Assembly: GCF_964355755.1 (NCBI RefSeq)
Contig: NC_092678.1
Coordinates: 23,788,365 to 23,852,364 of the forward strand
Direction of reading: 5' to 3'
From: Antedon mediterranea
Taxonomy: Eukaryota; Echinodermata; Crinoidea; Comatulida; Antedonidae
Length of the DNA: 64,000 bases
The notes beneath the pieces are model-generated. The model was not told the DNA's origin and ran no database searches. It saw nothing but the letters and a program-made list of their open reading frames with translations. Positions 17,357 through 57,800 of the stretch are shown here, in pieces. Each line of letters opens with the position of its first letter. Within the stretch, counting starts at the first letter, position 1. A program made the position numbers and the translations under genes.

Positions 17357-20300
17357 TTATTTCATCTTGGTGGTGACCTCTATGACTCGTGGTTTGTCGA
17401 TAACTTTAGCTTTTCGTTCTCCTTTTTCAACTATTCCAATTATCCACGCCGTGTGGCCATCGACTCGTTCAATTTCCTTGCAGTAGGCGGCAGCTTGTTC
17501 TCGTGGGAAGGCGATTAGTAGGCCTCCTGTTAAAAAAGGAAATAATGAATAAAAAATATATTAGAAAAATTTATTTATTCATACATCCTTTCTAATGATG
17601 GTGTAATTAGTGATTTAGCAAAGCTAACCTGATGTTTCTGGAGAAACTCCCTGCGTAAGTTTAAACGTATTACCATACGATGAAAACTGTTGAATAGCGA
17701 ATGGTTTGGCAACGGATGACATCTTTCCAATCACTGGTAGATTGTGGATGACAAAGTTCACATCGTTTCGTTGATTTTTAACTAATTGTTTTGCTGCGCC
17801 TAGTATTCCATATCCATCAACGTTTGTAGCACCGTGTGCGTTAAACTTTCGCATCGTGTCTGCAGCTGTATAAAACAGAGAAATGATAGCAACACTGTTA
17901 AAGCTTGTATCATCTACAAACGGCGTTTGTCTTTAACAAGTTTGCCAATAACTATATACAATATACAATCAATACCGGAATATGGAAAACCTTCTTTTCT
18001 TGAGATCCAAAAGGTACCAAATTCATTTTTACTATTAAAAACCAATTCCGAATACCATACAATTCCAGAAAACCAGACATATTAGGCCAGCTTAAAAGTG
18101 AGAGTTGAATTAAAAATAAAACTTTGTATTGTTTATATTCTTCTGGAAGATAAAGAATTAATAGTTATATGGCCGAGCGGTTAAGGCAGGGGCGCCGTTT
18201 ACCGTATCTAAAGAGCCAACAACAACATCGGCAAGGGTTCGAGGGCGACTCGCTCCTAGTTCTGGTGGTGGAACAAGTCTTCTCGGATAAGGACTATAAA
18301 CCGTAGGTCCAGTGTACACAGTTATAACCTGTGTGTACTTTAAAGAACCCAGTTCATTATTCGAAAAAGAGTAGGGGGTTACCCCGGTGAACTGGTTCAC
18401 ACAATAGCCCCTGTATCAGGAGGATTACCACCTATCTGATAGGACAGTGATTAATTCACTATTGGTAATCCTTGGCCACATTGCCTAAAGACATAAAATA
18501 AAATAAAATAAAATAGTTAAAATCTGCCTACCATTGTTGTTCAGTCTAGCCATGTTATACATAGCTTCTTGGTAGGCTCTTTCTACGTCTTCAGCAGCAG
18601 CTATTGGCTTGATTCGGTTCCATTTGTCTGTCAACTCAAGGAACTGATGGACTTGTACTGCGACACTGGTTCCTAGTGGTTTGGTCAAAACAAGAACATC
18701 TCCAACAATAGCACTGTCTGGCCTAAAATTACAAAAATGTTTAATTTATTTAGTGCACACCTACAGTGAGTTAATAATAATAATAATATAACCCATACTT
18801 TGTAAACTAATGCTCTGTTACACTATCAAACTAGTTAGACAAAAAATGTGTGATGTGTCAAAATATGGTACGGTAGTTATGGTACGGTAGTTATGTGACG
18901 TCACTGTGTCCAATGGACAGCGCATCACATTATGTTGTCATGTTGACAGTGTAGACAGAGCTTAAGACTTGATATGAAAGGCTTAGGCCGAGTTGTCTGG
19001 CATGAACAAATCCATTAAGACATACGTGATAATATCATGAGGGGGTATGATAACTGTGGTCGTTCCTCCAACCACACACCATGGGTTCAAATAGGTCCTT
19101 CCAGCAATCACATCCGTTTTTGCTTCTTTTGCCATATCCTGTAAAAAGAATAGTCTTATATAAATAATTTTTATTATTTGATTTGTTAATTCATTCTGAC
19201 TTCTGAGGACGTTCGAAGTATATTGATTGAAACGTTGAGAAACCCAACAGTTCTTTTCAGAACTATATACACGTAGTGTACCGAAAAACTTGATATCAAC
19301 ATATTATTATCTAATTTGAATATAAATCATTTTTATCATGATTAATGGATTGCACTGTAGAGTAGTTGCCAGACTATTCCATTTTTCTATGTGGGTGGTA
19401 TACTTTATCTTGGTATGTAGGCACAGACTAAACACTGCTGTAAAGATACTTACTTTAAAACCCTGAACAATCAATGGAGCTATTGCGTCTCTTTCCTTGT
19501 CAGAAAACTTATTTGGAAGACCAAGTTGCATGACAATTGTGTCACATTTGAGAATTCCAATTGCATACAAGTCACCGAGCGTACTGGAGCAGGCTATTTT
19601 ACCCTGGAAATTAAAAAAAAAAAGATTACTAAAAAAAGATATCTATCGGTAAATGACTCACAGTTTTAAACTGAGAAGAATGACTGCAGTTACTGCAGTA
19701 TTGGCGAATGACTGCTAGTTACTGCAGTAATTACTTACCATCATATAGGGATCATCCACCAATGCTGGACTCATATTTGTGCTTTGAATCATGCTAAACC
19801 CTCCATTGCAAGGCCTAATCCCAATATGCGAGTTCTCACCTACAGAAAAAAAAGGAAATCAAATTGGTTCAAATCAAATACTACTTACACTAGTACTACC
19901 AAAACTAGTTTACGACCTACATACAGTACATAGTTCATTTGTAAACAAGACAACATACATAAAATCAAATATAATTATTATTATTTAATATTATTGTAAT
20001 AAATAAATGTAGGCAATTTATGTAACAAGGCCTATTGAAATTTATTTTATATTTAGTATATTGACTCCCTCCCCAACCCTCTCAAATTAAAATGAAAAAA
20101 AAAAACAAATGAAAAAAAAACAAACCCCAATATCATTATGTAAACAAAAACAAACAAAACCTCGTGGGACCAAGCACCGGGAACCATAATACTAGTAGTA
20201 AGGCTTTCTCAAGCACTTCCTATTCCTAGCCCACAAAACACAGAACAAAGCATGAAAATCGCCATGAAGTATGCCTTCCAATAATTGTTAAAAATTGTGA

Positions 20301-20761
20301 ACAATGCTAGGATTAAATCAACTATTAAACTATTACCACAGTTTATGCGTTTATTTATTATATGTTTTTAGAATTAAAATCATAAATTATGTGTAAAATA
20401 GAAGCAGACCGTTTGATGTGTGAATCAAAAAATCTACTTGATATCAGGGTACGAAAAGGCACCCAAGCCTACTCAAAATGAAGTTAGCCAATCAATTTCC
20501 CAGTGTTTACAAATGTTTTAACGGTGTAAACATTGACTTACCAAGTTGTGGTACAATGGATTGAGGTTGATCAAGCAAGCCCATGGTATTTTGATCTTGT
20601 GCAAGAAGTTCGTTTTCCTCATCTTTGAATATCTTCAGTAGTTTATCTGTAGAATCCTCCGGCAAGGAGCAAGCAGACCCTTTCAAATCCACAGATTTCG
20701 ACATGCGAAATGACTTGTCTAAATCGTGGTCTTCTGGGTTAAATATAGGTCGTTGGGCCAT
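17357..20761 (-). CDS. SEPHS1: Selenophosphate synthetase family protein, probable pseudoenzyme
   Basis: Seven exons: 20542-20761, 19739-19839, 19454-19603, 19026-19138, 18532-18722, 17629-17865 and 17357-17526. Phases agree throughout and give 393 residues, the normal SEPHS length. Homology runs end to end: [86 protein letters not shown] and [10 protein letters not shown]. The family makes selenophosphate from selenide and ATP (SEPHS2), while SEPHS1 has another role. In this protein the catalytic motif reads KGSACSLP: Ser29 stands at the Sec/Cys/Thr site and Ser32 replaces the invariant Lys. Other changes are Asn95 for the Asp of TTD, Ser114 for Asn, Arg171 for Gln, and Asn273 for the Asp of ATD. 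I infer loss of synthetase activity. No in-frame UGA was seen. Confidence 0.9.
18158..18515 (+). mobile_element. tRNA-derived SINE with conserved-looking central domain and (AAAAT)n tail
   Basis: Begins with a Leu/Ser-type tRNA-like head: A box GGCCGAGCGGTTAAGGC, B box AGGGTTCGAGGGC. A body follows containing TCGGATAAGGACTATAAACC and CGAAAAAGAGTAGGGGGTTA, and a tail of AAAAT repeats at about 18491-18513. The body strings resemble the central domain of SINE superfamilies widespread in animals (as I recall from fish and other deuterostomes). It sits in the sense-neutral interior of a SEPHS intron. Confidence 0.65.
18811..18964. mobile_element. MITE family A copy in a SEPHS intron
   Basis: TGCTCTGTTACACTATCAAA at the left, CAGTGTAGACAGAGCTTAAG at the right. 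The interior has a small duplication of a TATGGTACGGTAGT unit. Confidence 0.7.
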
Positions 20762-20955
20762 TTTCAGGGTTTTAATACGTTACAAAATGGACAATTAAAC
20801 ACTAAAAAGTTAATAATTTTCAAAAGACGGTACTAATTAGGTGCAATTTGTAAATAATCTTGACGGTAACGAAATTATATTTCAACCACACTGATAAATC
20901 CCCGCGCTAGGGTCGGCGAGTACCGTACCAGATTCTACAACAGCTTGACCTATGC

Positions 20956-20970
20956 TTCCCACAATGCACC
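20956..20970 (-). promoter_or_regulatory. Possible ZNF143/Staf-type site upstream of the SEPHS-family gene
   Basis: TTCCCACAATGCACC (plus-strand reading) lies about 200 bases upstream of the start codon. It resembles the CCCA-x-x-ATGC core bound by ZNF143/Staf at many animal promoters. The match is short and its function is inferred from position only. Confidence 0.3.
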
Positions 20971-21944
20971 ATTTTGACGCCCTCGTACGAGGTTAAAATA
21001 CTGTGTAGAATTTTAACAAGCTTTTCCCAATAATTCGCATAAAATAAAACAATTTTCAGACAACATACAATTCAAAATTAATACTCTGTATTTTTATAAA
21101 CTATTTTAGACCTATTCAAATGTGTAATGATAATCATAAATGTGATTTAAAGCAATAAAATGTTAATATTTATTATTAGTAGCCTAGGGTGTTCGTAACA
21201 TTTATTTAGTAGCTAAAGGGGCTTCCTTCACCTTATTCCTGGATTCTGATAACATAGGGAAAATGATAAATATAGGAATGACATCTTCAAATGAATACAA
21301 ATAAAAAGAGCCCAGGTTTTGATTGTCTTATATATAATTTTATGTATTATCTATGCTATAAGCGCGCTTACCTGTATTTATTTAATTATTTTTTAGGTAA
21401 AAGAAAACAGTGGTGGATTCAGAGGGAGGGGCGCACCTTCTGAAAACAAACAAAAAACACATTTAGGCCTAAAGCCTTAACACTCTTTCACTATGTATAT
21501 TATTTAACATAACTAGGCCAACATGATAACTTCGAAGTCACGTCACTTTTTGAAATGTTAGAGGAAGGACCAGCTAGGCCTACTACGGCTGAGCTGAGAA
21601 ATTGAAAAATAGAGCTGCTAGGTCCCCTGAAATTATAGCCTATTTACTTTATTGGCAACAAAAACAGCATAAATATAAACAATCATTTTTGTTGACAAAA
21701 GGTGATAAGATTTAGTTAAAAGAAACTAATTGCACGTATACATGAAAATATGAAACGAAATTATAAGTCTACAGGACCAGTCCACCATGCTTGGTGGAGC
21801 TAATAATTTTGAAAAATTCGAAATATGGATAGAAAGAATATAAGTCTCCACGACCAGCCCCTGCCTATCAAATTAACTTGACTCTCTAAATATCTCTTTA
21901 AAAAAAAAAAAAAAAAAATTATATTTATTAAAAAAATAATTCCG

Positions 21945-22030
21945 TAGAGATTCGAACCCCAGCTAGTAGAGTTGAGAGAATTCAAACAATAGGCTAGTTC
22001 ACAGAGCACTACCCGTTACGCCACAAGTAC
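21945..22030 (-). mobile_element. tRNA-derived SINE head
   Basis: Minus strand: A-box-like TTGTGGCGTAACGGGTAGTG and B box GGGGTTCGAATC. A poly(A)/poly(T) run lies close by at about 21898-21920, consistent with the 3' tail of a retroposed copy. Confidence 0.5.
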
Positions 22031-22162
22031 ACGAGCAATGAATAGTGACAATAGGATATTCTTAAACGCGCTTCATATTACGTCATTCTAATCGTTACGT
22101 CATAATTTGCATGACGTCATTTTGAAGAAACGAATCTAGTTTTAACGTTGACATAAACCAGA

Positions 22163-22400
22163 GGGCCGGATAGCTCAGTCGGTAGAGCGTCGTGGAACAC
22201 GATTATCATGGGTTCAAACCCCATGCCGGTCGGTGGAAAAGAGTTAAAGCTATGCGAGCTTCTGTGTTTGGGGTTCACAGATTTAAACGTCCCCCTTTCC
22301 ACCACACATTATGAGGCGATAACATCAAAGCATCTGATGTGTGGTACCCCCAAGGCTGTGAGAGAGCCTTACCGTGCTAGAGGCAAGGGAGCACACCATA
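22163..22400 (+). mobile_element. SINE with a near-complete tRNA-like head
   Basis: The head at 22163-22232 has a six-pair acceptor stem (GGCCGG / CCGGTC), a perfect D stem (GCTC / GAGC), and a T arm with the canonical TTCAAAC loop. The A box (TAGCTCAGTCGGTAGAGC) and B box (GGGTTCAAACCCC) are excellent. The anticodon arm is about four bases too short and lacks U33. A non-tRNA body follows, so this is a SINE head and not a functional tRNA gene. Confidence 0.6.
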
Positions 22401-23797
22401 TTTTTTTTCTGTGGCTTCCCGCCTCCTTTCGATGTGGTAAATTTTATGTTTGGCGCCCTCAATTTTAATGTCGGAAAAAAGGGAATTGTAATTCTCTTCG
22501 TTACGTGTTTGGAAGATAATTTATATCTCATCGTAGTTTGGTATGTCGTGCGTTGTTATGCAAATGAGTTTGTGCAGGTGAAGTAGGAAAGCTATGGTAT
22601 TGTTAGTCATTCGCTGACAACACGCCACACTGTTACATTTTGATTCTGTTAATCTTTTCCATTTTAGAACCAGTCACCACTGAATGAGGACCTGTGGTGG
22701 CGAAGCGCGAATTTTGTTGAATGACACCCCTAGATGATACTCTAACACGTAAAATTCATGATAAATGGCCCCTAGGGCACATCTCTCTGCTAACATCAAA
22801 GACAATTTGGAATTAGTAGGTGGTGTAAAACTAGCTAACCCCAATGATATTTATGTGATTATTTTTACCATATCACTAAATGCGTCTTTTTTCCTTTCAT
22901 GCATTCTTAATAAGCAAACACGGCTCTCTGTGGCCTATAGAAATTTTCTTTTGTTAAAGAAAAATATTACGACAATCCCGAAATAATAAACACGGTAGTG
23001 AAGGTCGTCAAAATTCCCTAAATATTTTAGTTGACAAAACTCCTAATCTTATATTTTTGTCTGCTGTATTATTCTTTCTTTCTGTCCATCTTTTGTTCGC
23101 GTTTCTCTAAACCTTGTAAACATTTTGAATTTGAATTTCTTCATTTAGTAAATTAAAACACAATTACAACACACGGAAATAGCAAGGGCCAACTTTTTGG
23201 AGTAAAGATATGTGTATGTTTAAAATTAAAAATCTTAATTTCTGATCAATTTCACGCACGGTTCCAGTTTTAGGACATTTTGAGCATTTCAACAATTGTT
23301 TTTAAAAGTTACTTAATTCGTTGATTCAGAATGTATAGCGAATTTATGTTTTGTGTTCCTGACATGAAAGTAAATAGTGTTATACTGTATATATTCAATA
23401 GCTTGATTTGTTGTCATCGAACACTATGGCAGCAAACCAGAAGGAAGAAGAATAGTTTAATTAGAAATTCCTGCTACCCAACAAACTTGCTATCCCGCAC
23501 CGTATTGAACAATGCACGCCGCGACCGCATGTAAAGAATATAACTCATAGGCCTACTTGGTACAGTTGGCCTATTGTTATGCATTTTTTGCATTATACAT
23601 GGTTACGCATATATTATTAAACATTAAAGGATTTTTGACGTCACTGGGCAGTCTGCAAACCAATTTTGCAAAACACTGACTCGTCAATTATTTGTATGGA
23701 AGTCGAGTTCGTGGAAACAGCTCTTTCATATAGCGTCGTTGCAGCCCCATAATTCGTTCGTAGTTATAAATCTATAGGTTTATAGCTAATTTGTCAT

Positions 23798-26700
23798 ATG
23801 AATTATTTTCATTTTAAAAAATCCACAGAAATAGAAAGGATGGTAATGACATCAAGTGCTACTGTTGAGAATTTACATGTTTTACTACAACAAATACGAA
23901 GTTGGAGACCAAAGCGATGTCCAGGTTTTGATAAGCCTCCGTGTCCCATTCGAGTTGTAGTGTTCGGAAAGTGTGGTGCCGGTAAAAGCTCACTTATAAA
24001 TAGCTTATATTGGCTGTCTAGATACGACTTAAAAAATTCCAATCCTGGACATTTTGAGAGTATAGTAGCGTGTTCACCAGCAGATGTCCAAACTACTGGT
24101 GGAAACACTACACGACTTGTGAAGTTAGACGTCTCTGACAACATGGAGTTTGTAGATTCAAGAGGATTTCAAACAACAGACATCAACGTCCGCAGATTGA
24201 TAACCATGATATGCAGTAAGTTGTCTTGCATTTTTAATTTAGTCAGGAAAGTTACGGTACATTTTGGAGAACAATGGTGATTTTAGTGATTTATGATGCG
24301 CTGGTTATGTATTTTTTTTCCATTATGGCTCTGTTTTTTTTTCTGTTTAGAGGGTTATGGACAATTCGATAAAGACATGGATTGGATACCACTATGGAAA
24401 ACATATTTATATCCATTTTTTTACGACTATGTTCGCAAAATGGATTTTGCTGTATTTGTTGTCAGGTATGTCGCTATTATAATAGGATGATTTTGTAACA
24501 CACTTGTGACACAATGCATTAAAATACTACTATATTTAACATTATCTCTATCACTATTAATTGTTATGCATAATAACATATCACCTTTCTAACAATTGAA
24601 TTTTACACAGTGCGAACAACGAAAACTATATTGAAGAGTGTAGAGCTTTCATTGGTCCTATAAAAGACGGAATAGGTAGGTACAGTATTACATTTTTGGT
24701 ATAATATTTATAACTTTATAAGACGTTTACTATAATAACTTTAAATAAAAGTTAATGACGTGTTGATTGGGTCATTTTGTTTGTGAGTGACGAATTCAGT
24801 TCTTAGATCCAAAGCATTTTCTTAATTGAACAGTCAAAATTTGGATTTGCACTATATTTTGAAATAATTAACTGTATCAGTAGGACTGATATCATAGATA
24901 TCATCATAAACATAGTTATCATCATTAATCATTTAGCTCTGTGCACAATATTGCATAACAAAATTTACTTCATTTCCATTCTATCAAGATTAAATTTTAA
25001 ACATCATTATAAAATATTATCAAAACTTAAACTTGATTTTGGCCAATTTGTAATTTGGTTTTTAATTAGGGTATGCACCACTTGTTGTTGTTACTTCAAG
25101 AGATAAACTTGATTCTTCTAAGAAAAGAAGTATGGAGGTGAACCTGACGGCCTATGGTAAGTTAATTTTCTTTTTTACCTTTTCATGTTGAAACTAGAAT
25201 ATTACTACAATAATGTATGTAAAATCAAGGATTAATCTTGTGTACTATGGAATGACACACCTACTTGATGTAATTTATATCACAACCAAGGCAAGTTTTG
25301 ACTGTCTAATCAACCAAGCTTCTCGATTTCAGTTGAACGAACCCATTCTCTATATACAAACCAAACAGTTTCCAATTGATTGGTTTAATCAAATACTATT
25401 GGTATACTTTTATCAAGAAATACTATATAAAACATGGAATTGCATTTTATCATTTGAACAAACAAAATCAAACCCAAATTATTTCTGCCTGGCTTTTCGA
25501 AATTAATCGCGATTCTAGGAAAAATTGTTATCTGTATGATAAAAAATAAATAATTATTCACTTATGTTATTGATATTTTTAAATTAAACCATAACATAGG
25601 TGCACACGCAGCTGTCTTTGTTGAAAATTACACAACACGAACAGATAGGGAACGAATGACTATTACTGAAGTTGACACCAATAAACACTTTGATTTATGT
25701 AAAGTGTTCACGACAATCCAGAGAGAATACAATCATTTTTTAACAGGAAAATATGAACATCGACATTCTCGTTTCCTAAAACCAGCAATCATTGTGCTGA
25801 TATTGATGCTTTGTGGTTTTCTGTTAGGTAAGCAAGTTTCCATCGCATACACTGTACCCATGACGTACCTCAAAATTAGATATGAAAATATCTGTGCTCA
25901 TAATTAAAATTACGTTTATGTTAAAACAATACTTTCTCGTAAAACTTGACTGACGTGACTCCTCTTTATCTCTTTACTACCAACATGGACAAAATAAAAA
26001 TTATAAATGTCTATTTACTGGAACTTAGGGTGGCATAGAGCTGGTTTTAATGGTGTGCGTCGTGACTGCAGTGACTTTGGCATTATGTCGGGAAATGGTG
26101 TAAATACTATTCGACCAGGCAGTGGAGAGCCGTTCAATGCTTATTGCGATATGACGACAGATGGCGGTGGTTGGACAGTACGTACATACCATTTTTCAAA
26201 TCCCATATTGGTCTTCCCCGAGTTACTATTGCATCACCATTTATATTTAGTAGGGTTTCCACTGACGTTGTGTTATTAGGAGTGAACCGGATTTGTGTGC
26301 CGATAAATATACTTATATAATTATATATATAAGAAAAACTTGTGTGTGACCCCTAAAAACGAACCCTTATGATTATTAATATAAAAAGACAACATAAATA
26401 ACAAAGATAAAATCAGAACTTTTGAACTATGAAGTTTGTTTCCAAAAGGTCCTAAGGCGCTTTCTCTTCTGTACCTTACTCGTTGAACCTGTAAGGGATA
26501 TTATATTGTATGGTAGGCCTAATAGTATAAATGCACGAACAAAATCTAGAAGAACAAAGTCTATAAACGGTGATACCTGTAAGCATTGATAATAATAATA
26601 AGTTATGATTATATTATCTTAAAGGTTATTCACAGAAATTCTGATAGATCTGATGGATTTTTTAATAAAAGTTGGGAAATGTACAAAACTGGTTTCGGGG

Positions 26701-27589
26701 AACGAGATCAAGATCATTGGCTTGGAAACGAGAAGATTTATCGGCTAACTAACGTATCAAAATACGAGTTAAGAGTTGATTTAACATCATTCAAAAGTGG
26801 TTCTCGATTTGCTCTCTATGACAATTTCAAGATAAGCAGTGAAGGCAGCTTGTATAGGCTACATATTGGTGCCTATAGCGGTGATGCTGGTACGTAGTGA
26901 ATGACGGTGTGGGTTTTTTTTAACCCTTTTTCCTCTTTCGTGCCTTTTCGTTTGATTGATAAACAATATAATAAATCGGGATAATGATGTATAGGAACAA
27001 CGAACTATCATAATAATAACACTGGTATTCATTGAAAATATAGGACAATTAATTATAATGTGAAAATTAAGGAAAATTATTGACGATTGATTATAAAAAT
27101 AATAATGACAACACTTGATAATAATTAATGGTTGCAACGTTGATGGTGGGTGAAAAGATAACAGATAATTAGGTGCGATTAATGATAAAAATGATTATGC
27201 TAATAATGAAAATGATGTGGATACAGTATAAATGATAATGATCCTACAAAATGTCTTTTTTTTTATATATAGGGGATGCTCTGATATGTCACAATGGAGC
27301 TTCGTTTTCATCCATATCCGGCAAGCAGTCAAAACACAAATGGTGGTGGTTAAGTGAGTGTTCCCATAGCAACCTCAACTACGCGCCCGGCGCATATAAA
27401 GGCCTCTATTGGACTCATTTTGAAGACGCAAAACTGAAATCAGCCGAAATGAAAATTCGTAGAATCGATTACTTTCGATTTGTTTATATTTGGTATGCAT
27501 ACTCAATTCTTCATTTGCCAGAGATAATTCTGGCAATTACAGCGATTATTATAATAACAGTAGCATGGACTGTAATAAAAAATAACTGA
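23798..27589 (+). CDS. Membrane protein fusing a P-loop GTPase to a fibrinogen-related domain
   Basis: Eight exons: 23798-24215, 24351-24465, 24611-24675, 25070-25156, 25600-25827, 26029-26177, 26625-26889 and 27273-27589. Every junction is GT-AG and in phase (1, 2, 1, 1, 1, 0, 1), giving 547 residues. Residues 52-240 form a GTPase: P-loop GKCGAGKSS (57-65), Thr-rich switch I (about 99-105), DSRG (120-123) and a G4-like TSRDKLD (208-214). A basic stretch (RHSRFLK) precedes membrane segment 1 (about 289-305). Residues 306-506 are a fibrinogen C-terminal domain: RRDCSDFG, YCDMTTDGGGWTV, WLGNEKIYRLT, HNGASF, SNLN, EMKIRR. A second hydrophobic segment (about 524-544) ends the protein. Predicted topology: GTPase in the cytosol, fibrinogen domain outside. 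The GTPase subfamily is unresolved (AIG1/GIMAP- or IFI44-like are options). An alternative start is Met at 23840. Confidence 0.8.
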
Positions 27590-27610: not shown

Positions 27611-27776
27611 CCCTGTCTACACTATATCAAACTGTATTTGTCCAAAAAATGTGATGTGCCCATATATGGTAGTACTATGCTCAAATATGGTAGTGATATG
27701 ACATCATCATGTCCATATATGGGCACATCACATTTTTTTGTCACATAAAGTTTTTTATAGTGTATAAAAGGCTTTA
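27611..27776. mobile_element. MITE family A copy just downstream of the GTPase-fibrinogen gene
   Basis: CCCTGTCTACACTATATCAA at the left and TTATAGTGTATAAAAGGCTT at the right. It begins only 20 bases after the stop codon, so it probably forms part of the 3' UTR. Confidence 0.7.
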
Positions 27777-29220
27777 GGATAATTATAAGGAAATATTTCG
27801 ATTTTTTAGATAAGATATCATGTAAAAGTATTACCTATACTTCGTTTTTTGTTTCAGTAATGAAATAACGTACCACTATAAAGACAGATTAAATTTCCCA
27901 TTCATTTATTTTCATATGATACTCAACTGAAGTCGCTGACGGATTTGTATACAACTTATATATCTACCAGAGGCCCTATATTGCACACATAAAATAATAG
28001 GAATCTCTTTGGCCACATATACGTGTAGACATGCGTAATCATCTTTAAACTTAAAACTAATATAGAAATGTTAAGTATAATGAATTTACATATTATAAAT
28101 TAAATATACAATATAAATACAATTTACAATGATGTATAGGCCCTAATCGTTTTTTATTATATTTTAAAGTTATAGTATATGCGCAGCAAATTAGTTAAAG
28201 TTAACATTCATAAATTAATAATTAATAGTGCACACTGTATATAGGTTATCATGCATTAGAAAAAAGTTTAAATATCAAACGCTTGCTTTTGATTCATGTC
28301 AATATAATTATGCCTATTATAGTGAGAAAAAATATCAAAAGGTTGTATAATACAATGCAGTATTATTTTTGGTTTGTGAATACATTTATAATGGTGGTTG
28401 GTTAATTTTTTAAATATTTTTTAAATTTTTATTTTTATTTTTTTTAAGTACAGTATGGATCGTCGTAAAAATATAAATAAGTATTAGTAAACACTGCCTA
28501 GTTAAGTCTATACTTTCATTTTAATTGATGCAAATTGGTGGTTTTTAACTAATGTTTTTATTCAGCGTAGGAATAATAATGCCCTGTTTCCTGTATTATG
28601 ATTAATGCTTATGTCATCATGGCGAAGAGACAGTTGACATGTGCGTAGTGGGGAAATCCCCAGTGGTAACAAACCGTTACGTTACACACGCACGTGAGAA
28701 AATGTCTCCCTTCGTGATGTCATTAACGCATAAGACAGTGCATTTGGTTTGAACGATTAACAAATCCGCATTATTATTTTATTTTAATAATGTTAGCACC
28801 AAGGAAAATATATAAAACCACATTTACGTTACACAATAGCTATATTTCTAATAAATAATTCTATCATTGGATACAATACGTTCACCTAAACTAGGGTATT
28901 ATGACATGGCCTATTGCTACGTTTATCTAGTTACTATTAATTAAAAAGTAAATACTTTTATATAATAATTGCTTGTTGCTTAATAAACTATTAGTATAGT
29001 ATCAAATGTATTGCGTAATATTTTAACAAGCACCAGATATTTATTTCGTTTTTAATAATAATATTTAAACCAAATCACATTAGTTCATCAAATCACCCTC
29101 AGATAAAACATTTTTGTAAGAATTATACTACATTTTTTCTCAAACAATCTGCTAAACATAGAGAGAATGTATAATGTTGCAGATTTATTCTGAGCTAAGT
29201 GGGCCTACTATGAATACATT
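27777..29220. other. AT-rich intergenic region, nothing recognised
   Basis: Between the 3' ends of the GTPase-fibrinogen gene and the Piccolo-like gene. No exon, RNA gene or clear repeat was found. Confidence 0.4.
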
Positions 29221-29485
29221 GTTATCCAAATAAACATAATTTGTCCTCTTTTTCGTCAACATACATTACAAGATGTACGCGCAATGCAAGATAATGACCA
29301 CAAATAATTATTTTCCACTGAGGACGCAACGAGCAAAGGACGTAAAAGTAGGTTAACCAATCAAAAGCAAGTACGGATCACCATCCGAATGTTTGTAGTC
29401 ATTTGTGGTCATTATCTTGCATTGCGCGTACATCTTGTAATGTATGTTGACGAAAAAGAGGACAAATTAGGTTTATTTGGATAAC
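29221..29485. mobile_element. Foldback element with 85-base inverted arms
   Basis: Arms 29221-29305 and 29401-29485 are inverse copies differing at one position. They start GTTATCCAAATAAAC and run inward to TAATGACCACAAAT. The 95-base loop contains an ACCAATCA motif like MITE family B. The right arm supplies AATAAA (minus strand, 29472-29477), 155 bases past the stop of the Piccolo-like gene. Confidence 0.75.
29472..29477 (-). terminator. Candidate poly(A) signal of the Piccolo-like gene, inside the foldback arm
   Basis: AATAAA on the minus strand at a typical distance from the stop codon (29632-29634). Confidence 0.35.
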
Positions 29486-29631
29486 CCATTTGTCATTTGT
29501 TAATTGGAGCTCTAATTATCCGTTAATACTATCCCGTCGATGAAATTGTTCTTTTAATATATATTACTAATAGAATTAAAATCAATTTATAATACGAAGC
29601 AAGATTAGCCTCGGCCAACTGATGACGAAGG

Positions 29632-42800: not shown

Positions 42801-45800
42801 TAATAATCCAGAAGTTGATCTTTGCTCATATGGACTACACGATCAGGAAGAGACATGGTACTAAGGTGCATGTAGGGATAGATCATGCCAGCTACAACAC
42901 AGTACAACGCGAGAAAAACAAACATCCAATAAGAGACGTTACGTTATGAAAATAAGTTTGATAACTATAGAGGGCGTCTTGATTAAGTCGAACTCGAATA
43001 TAATTGATATCAGTAAAATACTGTATGCTATTAATTTAGTATAGGAAGTAATATTGATTCTACCATTCTAAACTGCTTTACCATGAAGCCGTCGAGATTA
43101 CCAAACTTATGTGCAGTTATGTATAGAAATTAAACATTTTTCAAGCATTGGTTTAAAAGCAGTATGAAATATAAATATTATGATTGTATTTTACGTTTGA
43201 AATATAAGTTCATTCCAGCATGCTGTAAATAAGTTTAAAGAACAATATTAACATAACGTGCAAAAGTTACTATAATATAATAATTGATAAAGAAGAGTGT
43301 GCAAAGTTTTGCTACAGTGTATTGCACTTATAGAGTGATCGTGCAAAGTATTTGAAGGCCAAATATTATGGAGACTTTATACCTTCCAGATTTGGATAAG
43401 ATTGCGTGGATGAGACAGGAATAGGTGACGATCCCATGCTTCTCTGTGGAGCTGACTTTGATGGACTGAGTAATGGCTTCCCTAACATTACTCCATGAAC
43501 TTGGCTGCTTGTTTCACGTCCGATACTGTCATAGCGCCTCTACAATCAGAAACAATAGGTTACATTATATTTGCAGATATGTGAATATATGTACTTTTGA
43601 TTTAATTGTTTGTTTTATTCGAATCCGTTAAAAATGTTGAGGATTTACCCTTTCATTTCGATGCTGATACGAATCTGAATCAGACGAACCGTCTGTTTGT
43701 CGACTTGACCTATAACCCCGAGTATCAGACGAATCAGAGCCAGACTTGAAATTCGGAATATCTTCGCGCCCTTCTTGAATTGACTGGTAATCCCTTCTTA
43801 TTGACTGAGAAGGCGTATCATCTAGAGGCAGAATAAGGCCGTGGGCATCGCGTTTCAATACGGATTGTCCTCTGTCGGGTAAATAAGGAGAAGATAGTGA
43901 CAGAGTGTGAGATCCATCAGTTTCGTCGAGTTGAGCATCTGACATGGTTTTCATACCAGCACCTAAGTGTCTGTTGTCGGTTCGTTGTATATCACCCATA
44001 CTTTGACTTAATTTAGACGTTTGTCCAGTCCAGTCGCTACGACGTTGTGCTTTTATCTGTTCCAGTCGTTTGGCAGATTCTTCCATTTGGCGCTTTCGAC
44101 GTTCTATTTCTTTCCTAAATTGCCTTTCTTGGTCTTCGCGTATCTTTCTTTCAATTAGTTCACCTTCTTTGCTTAATTTTTCTTCATCAATCTTAAAAAT
44201 AAAAATGCAATGATTAATATAATGTTATATACCAATATATTGTTGCATGATAGTTAATAGTTCCGAATGATTTACTAGGTATAATTATAAACTGTAATAC
44301 CATGCATAAATATTGATTATGTTGTTAATGTGTGTATATGTTTTCCTTAAAATTGATAATACATTCGCATTGCTAGTAAAGTTTAATAGCTGTTCATAGT
44401 ATGATGTTGGTAATAACTTACGAGTCTTTTCTTGTCCTTTGTTCTATATTGACGAAGAACAGGCGGAGACGAACTATTAGTTCTCCGTACAGACGCATCT
44501 GATTGGAATTTCTTTCTTGACATATGCGAGTCGTAAATGGTATCTTCAAATTCACCATCACTATGAGTACAGCGTGAATCGTGCTTCTTCCTTTGAGCAG
44601 TTGAGATCCTTCTTAAGTCATCAGATAATCCATACTTTTGTCGAACTTCCCTTTCTATCTCTGATCTTTCGTAAGCTTTATACTGAGTTCCAGTTGACTC
44701 AGATATTTGCTTCTCAATCTGCTTGATGATATCCTCTTCTGATTTCGTCAACTGGAATCCATGCGAGAAGGGTCTTAGGACGTCATCGAGATCTGACATC
44801 GACTTTGATCTCTCATCATCTGATGATTTACTCTCACTGTCGTGCATCATAACCATTTCATCAACATCAAAGATCATACCAGTACCTTTTTGTCTTCTTT
44901 CCTGACGTCTAAATATTCTTGCTGCTGTCATATCAAGTCTTTTCTTATCTTCTTCTGTCTTTTTACCAGCACGCTCTACTTCAAGCTTCTGTTTTTCAAG
45001 TTCCGCTGCCTTTCTCCTAAGCATCTCCCTTATGTACTGTAGATTCAATGTCTTGTCGGAATCTGATTCTTCATTGGCGCTATCTGCTGTCATTCCGACA
45101 GAGGTTATTGATAAACGTGTGCTTGGTACTGGTGGAAGTCTTCGTCGAATTTTAGACATTGTTTCTGAGTTACCCCCACGTTCAGAATCAGAGTCGGATA
45201 CATCACTGCCTTGAGCTTGAATCTGTTCAATGAAAATTATATAATATATAGTTATTTTTTGTTGTATTATAAATTCAATTGTTTTTATTTATTCCAAACT
45301 ATAAAATGATATAAATGTGGATGAGTTTTGTGTATTCTCAGAATATAATCTTGTATTCATGATGGGTATCAGGTACCGTAAGTGTAAGAATAATACATTG
45401 AATTAAAGAAGAACAAACACAAGTATATAAAAAACAACAGAAACGATAACAAAATGTTACTTACTCCTGAAGCATGCCTTTTATGGCTCGGTGGTTTTCC
45501 TGGTAATGTGAACATTTTCGAAGAGTATTCTGATTGACCCTCAGAGGTATGTTGCCGAGAAGAAGAGGTGGGCATCAACGGTGTGGTAGAGGCGTCGGTA
45601 ACAGGTAAACGTTTACTGTTTCTCTTAACAATCATCTCTGGTGTCGATGATCCGCTGGATCCACGTGACGATGTTGATGACACAGCAGTAGAGACGTCTT
45701 GGTCAGTACCGACCCCTTTTTCTCGGAACATCTTCGTTTTTGGGACAAATAATGATTCAGAATCGGAAGTTGGTGGGGATCCTTCTGGGCTGGTGCCTAC

Positions 45801-48800
45801 AGCTATGCTACTGGTTGTTGGACAAGTCGGGGATATCGAAGGACTTTCCAGTTGGTGGACGTCGGTAGAATCTGGTTGGTTGGATCTTATTGAGAGTAAA
45901 TGTGTGCCTTTTGTTGTGTACATAACTGCAATCGGTGCTTTATCACCCTCATTGTCATCATTTTCCTTTTCAGGTACAGTTTCAGTTCCAACTGAAACGC
46001 GTTGATGTTTCCTGCTACTGGCGATTCTAGTAACGCTTTTAGTTGAAACTTCACCATCTTCTTTACTTGTACTTGTTGCGACTGTTGCTGTTGATTTTGC
46101 ATCGTCTCCTTCAATATTTCCATCCTTTGTAGCGGGAACATGTTTTCTAACAGCTGCAGTAGGTCGGGGTTCACCTGTCTTATTTTCTTGTTTTAATTCA
46201 GTAGTCAGTGTACTGTTGTCTGACGAATCCGAGTTCTTTCGTGACCTACTGATCCTTTTAGGTGATTCTGGTAATGGACTGCTACTGGTATCTCTGATGA
46301 ATTGTTCAAATTGTTGCACCTTCTCTTGCAAACTTTCTCCCTCTCGGCCAACAATACTGGAACCCTCTTGTTCTGTTGACTGCCTAAATGTTGCTAAAAG
46401 CCGGGGAGACTGTGGTGACTCCTGAACGAACTTGGACGTCTTTGTAGCTACTTGTGACGTTTGCTGAAAAGTTTGTTTAATTTCTTTTACTGAGCTTACT
46501 CCTTTTTGAGATTGTGTTCGTTGTATTGATGACAAACTCGGCTTTGGGGGAATAGGTGGGGGTGCTGGAGGTTTATGTCTAGGTTTCGGTGTAGGTGGTT
46601 TTTTCTTTTCTGTTAATGTATTTTCGTTTGTCTTGTTTTGCTGTTTACTAGTATCTGGCGAGGTAACTGTATCTCCAATTTTAGCTAGTATAGGTTTCTC
46701 AAACGATTTACTTGTTTCAATTGGAGTTGGTGGTGATTCTAAAACTTGAGTATCTGATTTAGACGAAACTGTTGAAACTGGTGTAACTTTTGTATGATCG
46801 TGGTAGAGTTTTAGAGGCGGCGGTCTGGGCTTTGGTGTTTTTATTGATACATCTTCTTTACTGTCCGCATCTGATGAAAAAGATTCAAATAATACTTCAT
46901 TATTTTCGACCACTTTTTCAGAAGATCCAGTAGAAATCTTTTCAGGTGATGGCAGTTGCTCTTGTATTTCATATTCCTCTTCCTCTTCTTCCATCACTGT
47001 TTCTAATTGAAAGGCATCTTCTGGTGTTAAACTTGATTTTCTTGAATACTCTTCGTGAAGACGAAACTCTTCGTCTTCGTCATCTTCCTCTAATAAATCT
47101 GCTAAATCGCCACTCCCGTAAATATCATTCATTTGAGAGTCTTTGCTGTAATGATGTATAGTGTTATCATACATGCTTTCTTCTTCAATATCAATGTCCT
47201 CCTCATCTTCGTACTCAAGAGGAGACTCTTCTGCCAGAGATGGGTCAGCGTATTCCGGAGACGGAAAATCACCGGATGAATAGTCAGCATCGGGAGGAGA
47301 TCCTGACGTATCTACATCCCAAATTGGTGACAGAGGATTTTCAATCATACGTCGACTACGTTTCCTTTTGGGTAGCGAATTCGGTTTTTGTTTACGATTC
47401 GAAGGATATTGAAACTGAGACTTTACAATAACAGGTGTAGCAGTGCGGTTCGTTTTATTCGCTTTTGCTAATTGTTCGGATTCTGTTTCCATTCCTAGTT
47501 TAGTTAAATCACCTACAGATCTATATCTCATTTCTGGTTTTTCCTCTTTCTCACTTGGAAATCCGTAAAATGAGGAAGACTTTGCAGTGTTTTTACCTAA
47601 GAAACATCCCTGTTGAAGGTAATCTTCAGCAGTTAGAAGGGAACGACCTCTTTCTGATAGTTTTGGGTCACTAATGGCATGTGAAGGCTTTTCTCCAATT
47701 ACAACCTTTGATTTTGTTTTTCCTCCACAAACCCGGATCTCACTGTCACTTAAACTTTCGCAATCTAATGAGTAATTCCGTTTTCCATTAGCTAACATCA
47801 TTTCTATCTCTTCACGATACGGTGATAAAGTTTTATCTGTAGCTGTGTCATCATGAGATACAGTTGATGTGTGATCAATATCTAGTGCTTCCATTTGCAA
47901 ATCCTCTTCTTCATAGTCGTCTTCGTCAAAATCATGTCCATCACTGGATTCTCTGTCAAGTGAACTTGTAGACCCAGCGCTAATTTTTTCTCCTCCAAAG
48001 TTAAACGATTTAAATATTTCTTTAAATCCTTCTGTATGGCTATAAATTTGTTCTTCTATAGATTTAAATTCATCACTATCAAGAATCGATTTTCTCTCTT
48101 TTATAGCCGGTAAATCATGTATTGAAGAGGCTACAACTCTACCAGAAGTACTACCGTTTGGTCTCGCTATTTCATCTTGTTGCTGGCTAATCGTTTTCAC
48201 ACTATCGACTGATATTTCCGTATTTTCTACAATTACTTCATCTTGCTTCTGATTCCTTTTCGCATCAGTACTTTCTTTGCCTGACATTTGCATAAGCATT
48301 TTTCTCATTTCTTCGTCATCAAGGTCTAAGCTGGTTCGGGATTCCTCGGCAAGAGTCGGTGTAATGTCCTCGTCTCGCATACTTTCTAGACCACTATCGG
48401 AAGCAGAAAACGATGACGTCATAGTATTTTCTGGCAGACTATGGTTGCTATCTCGCTGTCGATTATGCTGTTGATCGTCTGGAGTTTCATCACTGCTTGA
48501 TCGTTGGTCCAAAAATTTAACTCCTGAAAAATATAGTTTCGTAGCAGAAGATTATAATACACGTAACGATGTCTTTGAAACTGGGAAATGAGTTAACAAA
48601 TTCACAAAATAAGTAAATTCTACTAGGATTGTATTTTGGCAACGTAAATCTAAATAAACACTATATATTGAGATAGGTTCTACATTGTTTATGCTAATAT
48701 TTGTTATCTATAATTATATAGTGACATTTATGCTTGTCATCTGAGCTATTATGCTAAGCGATTTGATGTGACATGAAACTCTAGAATTTCTCCCTCGTCG

Positions 48801-54800: not shown

Positions 54801-57800
54801 ACATAAATGTAAAAGTCGTGAGTCACACAGATCAATTATGTATCTTTACGACTACTCGATTCAGCATCCACAGTCCAACTACTCATAACATTTTGTATGA
54901 AATCAGTTTGCTGATAAATATTCCAAATGGTGTGTACTTGATTGCAGTGTACTTTATATCACGATAGTTCTTGTTTCTTATGAGGTGGTTGAACATACGA
55001 ATTTCCTTGGTGATTGGTTGCTTTTCGTGGCATTCTCCCTTCCATGGAACATCATGCCCTACCCATTAATGATCTCTTTACCGGGTTCTTTTTCTGTCAC
55101 CAGTAATGTTAAATACATCATCTTTCTTTTTTTTCATTCTCCATCTTATTCTTAACTAGGCCTACTAATTAATTATGTAAAGCCGAATATTTTCGCGCGC
55201 CCTTTTGTCGCGATATTCGGGATTTGTGTATTATTAAAAATCACCAGAAGAGAGAGACTTCTCCGTCCTCCCATCAAATCCCGATATAGTGAATAATAAA
55301 TGAAATATAAGTACTACTGTAAGTGATAAGAATTTTAATCCAAGTGACTGTGTATTTATAATTCAGAAAAAAACAGAAAATAGTTATGTGCAAAAGCTAA
55401 TAATGCGCATGTGCAGTAGAAAAAGCATGAAAATATCGATCGAATATCCGAACCATAATTGGAATTTGTGTTGCAAATATTATGGCAATAATACAATGTT
55501 ATAGGACGTAGTAATAATGCAAATGAGATAGAGCAGGCTTAGAAAAAAAACTATATTACCATAAAGCTTCTAGTATAGTAACCCCATAACAAAGCATATT
55601 ATTGTCCATAGTAATTCAGTTCAGTACCGTATAGGTAAAGCTCTGTTTACACTATCAAGCTTTATGTGACGAAAAAATGTGATGTGCCCATATATTGACA
55701 TGATGATGTCATATAACTGCCATATTTGGGCATATCACTACCATATTTGGACACAACACACTTTTTTGTCAAACTAGTTTTTTATAGTGTAGACAGAGCT
55801 TAACATGATTGAGGTTTGGGGGAATAGGGCGTAATGCTCTCTGTTATATCATGTATACCACTTCTCTCTATTTCTGACTTCTTAAAAACATTTCTTTATT
55901 TGACCGGACGTTGTTTCCAAATCAGGATTTTAGTTATTGTTATTATTATTGAAGAAGAATTCATGTTTGAAAAATAAATTGATTATGAATTTAATTGAAG
56001 TTGAATTTTTAGTTACCCGGAGATTGTAATTGTTACTGGTAATGAGATGATAATGACGTCATTATCAATTACCTATGAACATTTTAATACACGATAGGGT
56101 TACTAATATAAGCTTTAGAGTAAACTAAGATCTATTTGTTGCTGAAAAAAGATCAATATAGCATTCTAAATTTTGTAATAGAACTTTAAAAATATGTACT
56201 GTATATAAAAAAATGTTATGTTTTCTCTTCGACTCACCTTATGATAAGTGTTGCACAAAATAGCCAGATATACAGAATGTGGAAATAATAAAACAAACAT
56301 TAACCTTTGTACCCAGTGATTAAATTGATTCACATTATTCTATTATCATTATTACATTGATATAACAAAATATCAAATATTATTTGCTTTATGACCAGTT
56401 ATGAACAGTTAGTTGTTCAAATTAGCTGTATCTTCATTTTTCCGGCAGTTGATAATGTATGCATCAATCTCATAGCAACAAAAACAAATTACCGAATGTT
56501 AATTTTCAGTATTTTTAAATGTTTCAAAATGCAATTTGTAAATTGTAACAATGAGAATAATCTCTTGTGTATTATTAACTGTTATAATTACATAATTACT
56601 TTCTATGGAACGCGCAATTTACTGGCAATATTCACACTAGACTTATACCATAATGTCTAACCGGATTGACCGTTTAAGGAGTAACATTATTTGAAAGGGC
56701 ATAACATCCCTTTAACAATGAAATTCAGTTTTTAGGTTTTAAATTAGATAAGCACATCACATGGAAGAGCCATATAAACTTTATTAAAAATAGGATAAAA
56801 AAGAAATCTGGAATTCTGTTTAGTTTACGCCATATTGTACCCCGTAATATTTTACTTATGCTTTATAAATCATTTATTCAATCAAATATTACTTATACGT
56901 GCTACCCCAGACTTCTAAACCATAAGTCCCATCTATATCCTATTTTACTTGTCCAAAAAATGTGTCTTAGATGTATAACTTTCTCTGATTTTATGGTTCC
57001 ATCTTCTCCATTATTTAAAGATCTGGGTATTTTAGACGTTTTTAAGTTGTTTGAATTAAGTATAGTTAAGTTTGTTCATGACTAAATTAACGGCAAAACA
57101 CCACATCAAACAATGGAATACTTTTATTTAATTACACATAATGCTAGTACCAGATTTAGTAATAGATATAATTTTGCAATTCCGAAAGCTTGCACAGATG
57201 CTGGTAAATTTAGAATTTCTTTTAATGGAGCTCAACTTTGGAATAATTTACCCTTAGTTATAAAATGTACCTCTTCTAGATTTAAATTCATAAATGAAGT
57301 TAAATGTTTACTTTTACAAAAATATTAATGTTAGCCCTTGTTTACGTTATTTCTTTCATATAGTAATTGCTCTTTCTTTCTTATTGAATTATTGTTGATA
57401 GATGAAAATGTATGCATTATCACTAATTAATTTTTTTGTGACAGGAGTCAAACCTTGATTAGCAAAAGCTATTTTTTGGCTCCTTTTCACACACACATAC
57501 ATATTGTATTGTATTGTACTATTTATGTATGATGATGTGAATAAAGTTGGTATTATTATTATTATTATTATTAACATGGATAGAATATCTTTTTAATATG
57601 TGAATTAATAAGTATAACTGGAATGGCCCTTTAAGGAGTACAATTTGAAAGGGTATATTATAGCTTTAATATTATGAATTCATAATTCTAACCGGAATGA
57701 TCCTTTAAGGAGTAATCTTAAAGGGCATAGAATTGCATTTTAACATGAATTCATGAGTCTAACCAGAATGGCCCTTTAAGAAGTAATATTTGAAAGGGTA

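Follow-up and report, generated by a model that had tools for sequence, protein, structure and literature searches.

A candidate single gene joining a tail-anchored GTPase to a fibrinogen C-terminal domain

In a window of 64,000 nucleotides (the whole stretch of DNA analyzed; G000:C9:23788365-23852364, from a genome of 354 Mb in 18 contigs), eight exons on the plus strand between positions 23798 and 27589 join a P-loop GTPase to a fibrinogen C-terminal domain. We consider it probable (roughly 0.6) that they form a single gene, in which intronic recombination (exon capture) provided a tail-anchored GTPase with a fibrinogen domain facing the lumen or the cell exterior. The arrangement is more than chance because genes on contig C11 repeat the ends of the GTPase exons, and genes on contigs C10 and C1 repeat those of the fibrinogen exons, at 33-34% and 42-50% identity, respectively.

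Joined and translated, the exons give one open reading frame of 547 codons with a single terminal stop. All seven introns are GT-AG and phase is matched across every junction, including intron 5 (201 bases; the 25827/26029 junction), across which the GTPase and fibrinogen exon sets are in phase. An earlier reading of the letters alone (hereafter the sequence-only reading) had proposed this eight-exon model, and its coordinates, the 25827/26029 junction and the unbroken phase are all in the sequence as claimed. The features of the gene are:

23798..24215, plus strand: exon 1, N-terminus and P-loop half of the GTPase; donor GTAAGT; ends in phase 1, as in both C11 relatives
23966..23989, plus strand: G1/P-loop GKCGAGKS, with DSRG (G3) further on within exon 1
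24351..24465, plus strand: exon 2, GTPase; ends in phase 2, as in both C11 relatives
24611..24675, plus strand: exon 3, GTPase; ends in phase 1, as in both C11 relatives
25070..25156, plus strand: exon 4, GTPase with TSRDKLD (G4-like); ends in phase 1, as in both C11 relatives
25600..25827, plus strand: exon 5, end of the GTPase and hydrophobic segment 1; the homologous exon of both C11 relatives closes with a hydrophobic tail before the stop
25773..25827, plus strand: hydrophobic segment 1, residues 287-304/305, aligning to the tail in each C11 relative
25993..25998, plus strand: AATAAA within intron 5, with ATTAAA at 25903
26029..26177, plus strand: exon 6, start of the fibrinogen domain with a phase-1 acceptor; position and phase as in the L006 fibrinogen genes
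26625..26889, plus strand: exon 7, middle of the fibrinogen domain
27273..27589, plus strand: exon 8, end of the fibrinogen domain, hydrophobic segment 2 and stop
27503..27580, plus strand: hydrophobic segment 2, residues 520-545, by hydropathy

The frame of the 547-residue product proposed by the sequence-only reading stands, whereas its start does not: translation probably begins at 23840 (533 residues), since at this ATG the base at -3 is A and that at +4 is G, with an acceptor-like CACAG 11 bases before it, and the ATG at 23798 has neither base. In a domain search of the 547-residue product, Pfam Fibrinogen_C (residues 316-505, E 9.8e-40, 137 bits against a cut-off of 22) is the only family over its cut-off, which bears out the proposed fibrinogen C-terminal domain; all GTPase families fall below theirs.

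The general motifs of P-loop GTPases are GxxxxGKS (G1), DxxG (G3) and (N/T)KxD (G4). GKCGAGKS, DSRG and TSRDKLD are read in frame in the fusion, the G4 position being TSRD, without the lysine, and TSKQ in the C11 relatives. Several P-loop GTPase families match this half beneath their cut-offs (RsgA, E 0.0012; MMR_HSR1, E 0.0019; also dynamin, AIG1 and others), and no Pfam family matches it above. A GIMAP-type GTPase, as had been suggested, was rejected, AIG1 scoring 16.1 bits where 27 are required, over residues 52-70 only, as was an IRG/IIGP identity (IIGP, 12.9 bits against 24). AIG1 gives some match in three of the four scanned members of the GTPase family (best E 4.6e-05), among which the best E for IIGP is 0.0017; AIG1 matches over the cut-off occur at other loci of the genome (seven among the matches listed). 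Against solved structures, a profile of four GTPase rows gave mostly short matches around the P-loop (best E 0.00059, mt-EngA), and a match to septin-9 over about 106 positions (E 0.0078). A search for prokaryotic relatives of the GTPase yielded 589 pattern matches, none of them confirmed.

Searching the genome with the window GTPase returned the window gene, two C11 genes on the minus strand (19.56 and 18.96 Mb; L001 and L002) and a weak locus on C3 (L003), and repeating the search with a C11 copy and with C3 as query brought nothing further except a partial repeat of the tail (E 0.02) and one match of E 5.9. The partial repeat copies the hydrophobic-tail exon behind the L001 GTPase (G000:C11:19564728-19564817, minus strand) at 69% identity, with one internal stop. 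The five GTPase exons recur in both C11 relatives, where four of their ends fall at the same positions and in the same phases (1, 2, 1, 1). The last exon of L001 runs on as a hydrophobic tail that ends in RIVKFVLFMLLFLLLLRILFGYFI before a stop, and that of L002 likewise closes with a hydrophobic tail and stop codon; no hydrophobic tail was seen in the exon read of L003. In the ends and phases of its exons, and in carrying a hydrophobic tail on the last of the GTPase exons, the window GTPase fits this tail-anchored C11 family. An expanded family of fusions, which the sequence-only reading had envisaged for this lineage, was rejected: only one of the four GTPase loci found is a fusion, and the stretches fetched for the other three (about 5.9 kb downstream of each C11 copy) gave no match to a fibrinogen domain with an E of 10 or lower, while fibrinogen domains themselves are very numerous.

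Segment 1 (residues 287-305) has a mean Kyte-Doolittle hydropathy of 2.42 over 19 residues, against 1.18 for the best stretch outside both segments, and lies in the same exon as the end of the GTPase, in agreement with the sequence-only reading. Because the last exon of the C11 relatives ends in an aligned hydrophobic tail and a stop, segment 1 is the tail anchor that the GTPase has inherited. In L002 (reverse strand), a donor-like AGGTGGGT in phase 1 lies just past the anchor, near the same place as the exon 5 donor of the fusion, and may give a picture of how such a donor arises. Downstream of L002 are open stretches which we take to resemble a sperm-tail PG-rich repeat protein.

The genome holds at least 157 Fibrinogen_C matches (150 of 370 candidates scored). 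Those most closely related to the fibrinogen half of the fusion are exons in clusters at 12.73-12.92 Mb on C10 and 1.14-1.16 Mb on C1, with two apparently single-exon genes; four pieces of these clusters, each of about 10 kb, were read and cover nine genes in whole or in part. In the relatives read base by base, the acceptor of the first fibrinogen exon is in phase 1 and falls at the residue where exon 6 of the fusion begins, and the inner introns are also shared, following GGWT in phase 0 and YSG(D/N)AG in phase 1. The fibrinogen part of the fusion has two N-glycosylation sequons and an even number of cysteines (four, at residues 318, 344, 448 and 472), one of which (LIC) is at a new place. 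Elsewhere on C1 (9.0-11.9 Mb) there is a very dense cluster of fibrinogen domains with many pairs of equal score, some about 0.5 Mb apart, as if from recent segmental duplication or a duplicated assembly.

A scan for signal-peptide exons bears on whether the two halves are one gene or two. Upstream of five of the nine fibrinogen relatives lies a signal-peptide-like exon ending in phase 1 (e.g., MLVRLIVLSLMVAKVHS...), the looser scan also giving chance phase-1 rows, and in the fusion the GTPase/anchor exon stands where this exon would be. Across 20801-26028 the scan turned up no signal exon in phase 1, the stricter setting giving no rows and the looser one eight, all in other phases. By hydropathy alone, the fusion protein has no hydrophobic N-terminus, and segment 1 lies N-terminal to the fibrinogen domain, as in FIBCD1-type receptors. 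The comparison with relatives supports one gene whose GTPase would be cytosolic and whose fibrinogen domain would lie across the membrane, because the C11 GTPases are tail-anchored and the signal-peptide-like exon of at least five of the nine fibrinogen relatives was not found here. We infer that the domain would be either exposed at the cell surface or held within an organelle.

After the fibrinogen domain comes segment 2 (Kyte-Doolittle 2.48). Its hydrophobicity is unusual, since only 0.95% of 14,319 random stop-free 45-codon pieces taken from either strand elsewhere in the window reach 2.4, and the single membrane crossing of the sequence-only reading gives way to a protein with a second hydrophobic segment, though one of doubtful codon use. 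All eight fibrinogen relatives with a visible end stop no more than two codons from MKIRR, and the fusion runs on; segment 2 may therefore be captured 3′ sequence. We have moderate confidence that it is a real part of the protein.

Several observations weigh against a single functional gene. The signal-exon scan finds nothing for four of the nine relatives, and for this reason its silence in the fusion region is moderate rather than strong evidence for one gene. AATAAA and ATTAAA both occur inside intron 5, as could easily happen by chance in AT-rich DNA, and the exon 6 acceptor has a weak pyrimidine tract. The codon score is low in the GTPase part (0.07) and modest in the fibrinogen part (0.14), the reference being other coding windows of 39 codons (mean 0.42, 5th percentile 0.10); that of the last 39 codons is -0.43, which is non-coding-like and equaled or exceeded by 66% of 373 stop-free non-coding pieces. 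The calcium/S1 loop is missing, THCAQTYKG of tachylectin 5A falling in a gap and DKDHD aligning to GKQSK, and this loss could be a sign of decay. The missing loop holds two calcium-binding aspartates and, of the cysteine pair in the S1 disulfide, the first; the equivalents of these residues in FIBCD1, in the part of the source consulted, are Asp393, Asp395 and Cys401-Cys414 (PMC3908420). A D-x-(D/N)-x-D loop and a cysteine before WW are present in seven of the eight relatives whose last exon is visible, one C1 gene having neither and the last exon of the ninth relative lying outside the stretch read.

On the alternative of two adjacent genes, a tail-anchored GTPase would run on for 26 extra codons and stop within intron 5, and the fibrinogen exons would belong to another gene, for a secreted or membrane protein. 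Both C11 relatives are stand-alone tail-anchored GTPases, exon 5 does stay open for 26 codons into the intron, with AATAAA at 25993, and a scan that misses four of nine relatives could overlook a signal exon. The fibrinogen part would, however, need its own start and signal peptide, with a gap of 201 bases; the nearest upstream in-frame ATG (26007), directly behind a stop, gives a non-hydrophobic start, the region upstream yielded no phase-1 signal exon, and the exon 6 acceptor fits exactly in phase and position, such that we regard two genes as improbable. Because intron 5 holds both AATAAA and ATTAAA, early polyadenylation may produce a short, tail-anchored, GTPase-only isoform, perhaps alongside the fusion. 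Decidedly improbable, in our judgment, is a decaying or recent chimera, the exons of which are still open but which has lost its binding loop and is read past an old stop into 3′ sequence, giving a product without selected function. Such a chimera is hard to square with 547 codons of AT-rich DNA free of stops and frameshifts, with splice sites that are all canonical, with the four cysteines kept, and with identities to the fibrinogen and C11 genes which imply that each half has stayed open over a long divergence; it would account for the absent calcium/S1 loop, the non-coding-like codon use of the tail and the low GTPase codon score, the continuation of the fusion where all eight relatives stop, and the single fusion copy found.

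Overlapping with the single-gene reading is an intracellular version of it, in which the GTPase is anchored in an endoplasmic reticulum (ER) or endolysosomal membrane and the fibrinogen domain is a luminal dimerization module, without surface sensing. The appearance of at least five of the nine fibrinogen relatives as secreted proteins favors exit from the ER, and we place this version on the unlikely side, even though segment 1 can be aligned to a tail anchor, the acetyl pocket has disappeared, and the C-terminal hydrophobic anchors of GIMAP1, 3 and 5, as far as the source was consulted, target intracellular organelles (PMC8201404).

For the fusion as a single gene, the following course may be proposed. 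A splice donor would have arisen just past the hydrophobic tail of a tail-anchored GTPase, and would have been joined in phase 1 to three fibrinogen exons of a gene for a secreted protein. The former tail anchor would replace the lost signal peptide, acting as a signal anchor with about 240 residues after it; the GTPase would stay cytosolic, and the fibrinogen domain, which carries the cysteines and both sequons, would pass into the ER lumen and then to the outside or to the interior of an organelle. Segment 2, if real, would return the chain to the membrane, making the domain a loop between two helices with both ends of the protein cytosolic. The fibrinogen domains might then self-associate or bind a partner, and their clustering might set the dimerization and nucleotide state of the GTPase. 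Some GTPases are switched by dimerization; by analogy with these, and with FIBCD1, which is described as tetrameric in the part of the source consulted (PMC3908420), we propose this mode of control. The claim of recognition by the fibrinogen domain is weakened by the absence of the calcium/acetyl-binding (S1) loop; since the acetyl/calcium pocket is gone, partner binding or oligomerization would be expected over classical acetyl-sugar recognition. Taken as a whole, a one-chain receptor with a cytosolic GTPase output and an extracellular fibrinogen loop between two helices, made by splicing a tail anchor, turned signal anchor, to the body of a secreted lectin, and in which clustering outside directly controls GTPase dimerization, is unlikely. 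The product of the fusion might act as a surface immune sensor.

Comparison with related and known systems brings out what is particular to the fusion. Unlike the fusion, the C11 GTPases stop after the anchor, with no fibrinogen match found in the fetched loci, and the C10 and C1 fibrinogen genes have a signal-peptide-like first exon (at least five of nine), a stop near MKIRR (all eight seen) and the calcium/cysteine loop (seven of eight). We know of no GIMAP with a domain beyond its anchor. GIMAP1, 3 and 5 resemble the fusion in having a cytosolic GTPase and a C-terminal hydrophobic anchor, according to the part of the source consulted (PMC8201404), whereas the fusion falls short of the AIG1 cut-off (16.1 bits, with 27 needed). 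The fibrinogen part of the fusion aligns to the FIBCD1 structure 4m7f (E 2.7e-31), and the predicted topology is like that of FIBCD1, for which the portion of the source consulted gives a cytosolic N-terminal part, a membrane helix and a fibrinogen domain outside (PMC3908420). FIBCD1, on the same partial source, differs in its short cytosolic tail, coiled coil, polycationic region and retained calcium/acetyl S1 site (PMC3908420); in the fusion there is instead a complete GTPase, anchor and fibrinogen domain stand about ten residues apart, another hydrophobic segment is present and the calcium loop is absent. Snail FREPs likewise combine an invertebrate fibrinogen domain with another domain, which in the part of the source consulted is of the IgSF type and not a GTPase (PMC7588048). 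A GTPase and a fibrinogen domain on one chain were not found in the literature searched, protein databases and most subscription papers lying outside that search, and the word "GTPase" does not occur in the main text, so far as consulted, of PMC9835746 or PMC6321704. Membrane fibrinogen domains and tail-anchored immune-type GTPases are each known; their union on one chain appears to be new.

Directly behind the fusion gene lies a short inverted repeat (27620-27790; CATATATGG...CCATATATGGGCACATCACATTTTTTTGTCAC), translated pieces of which have counterparts in L002 and L003, and which is perhaps a MITE-like element; a long inverted repeat was seen by eye at 29220-29490 (GTCCTCTTTTTCGTCAACATACATTACAAGATGTACGCGCAATGCAAGATAATGACCACAAA). 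On the minus strand, the exons at 20510-20779 and 17627-19642 (three scanned, no Pfam match found) resemble those of a selenophosphate synthetase, in which the usual selenocysteine/threonine place reads KGSACS, with serine. The plus-strand gene at 13457-14561 matches Pfam DUF1751 (E 1.3e-22) and is, we assume, TMEM115-like. A large multi-exon gene on the minus strand (about 34000-60800), which includes a 1060-codon open stretch at 45372-48551, matches C2 (E 1.6e-13) and, weakly and below cut-off, PDZ and Piccolo zinc-finger families; it resembles a RIM-type presynaptic scaffold. The open stretches at 56705-57325, the first of two giving no Pfam match, resemble the end of a LINE-type reverse transcriptase. 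A search of the assembly for mitochondrial COX1, which would have borne on an echinoderm identity, gave no match.

The window GTPase lies under every Pfam cut-off, and its family deserves a name. If the fusion is transcribed as one mRNA, it would link an outward recognition-type domain to a cytosolic GTPase without an adaptor or second messenger. If the single-gene reading is true, the fusion would show clearly how intronic recombination can convert a tail-anchored protein into one with a large luminal domain, and since relatives of both halves are present in the same genome, the evolutionary steps would be open to testing.

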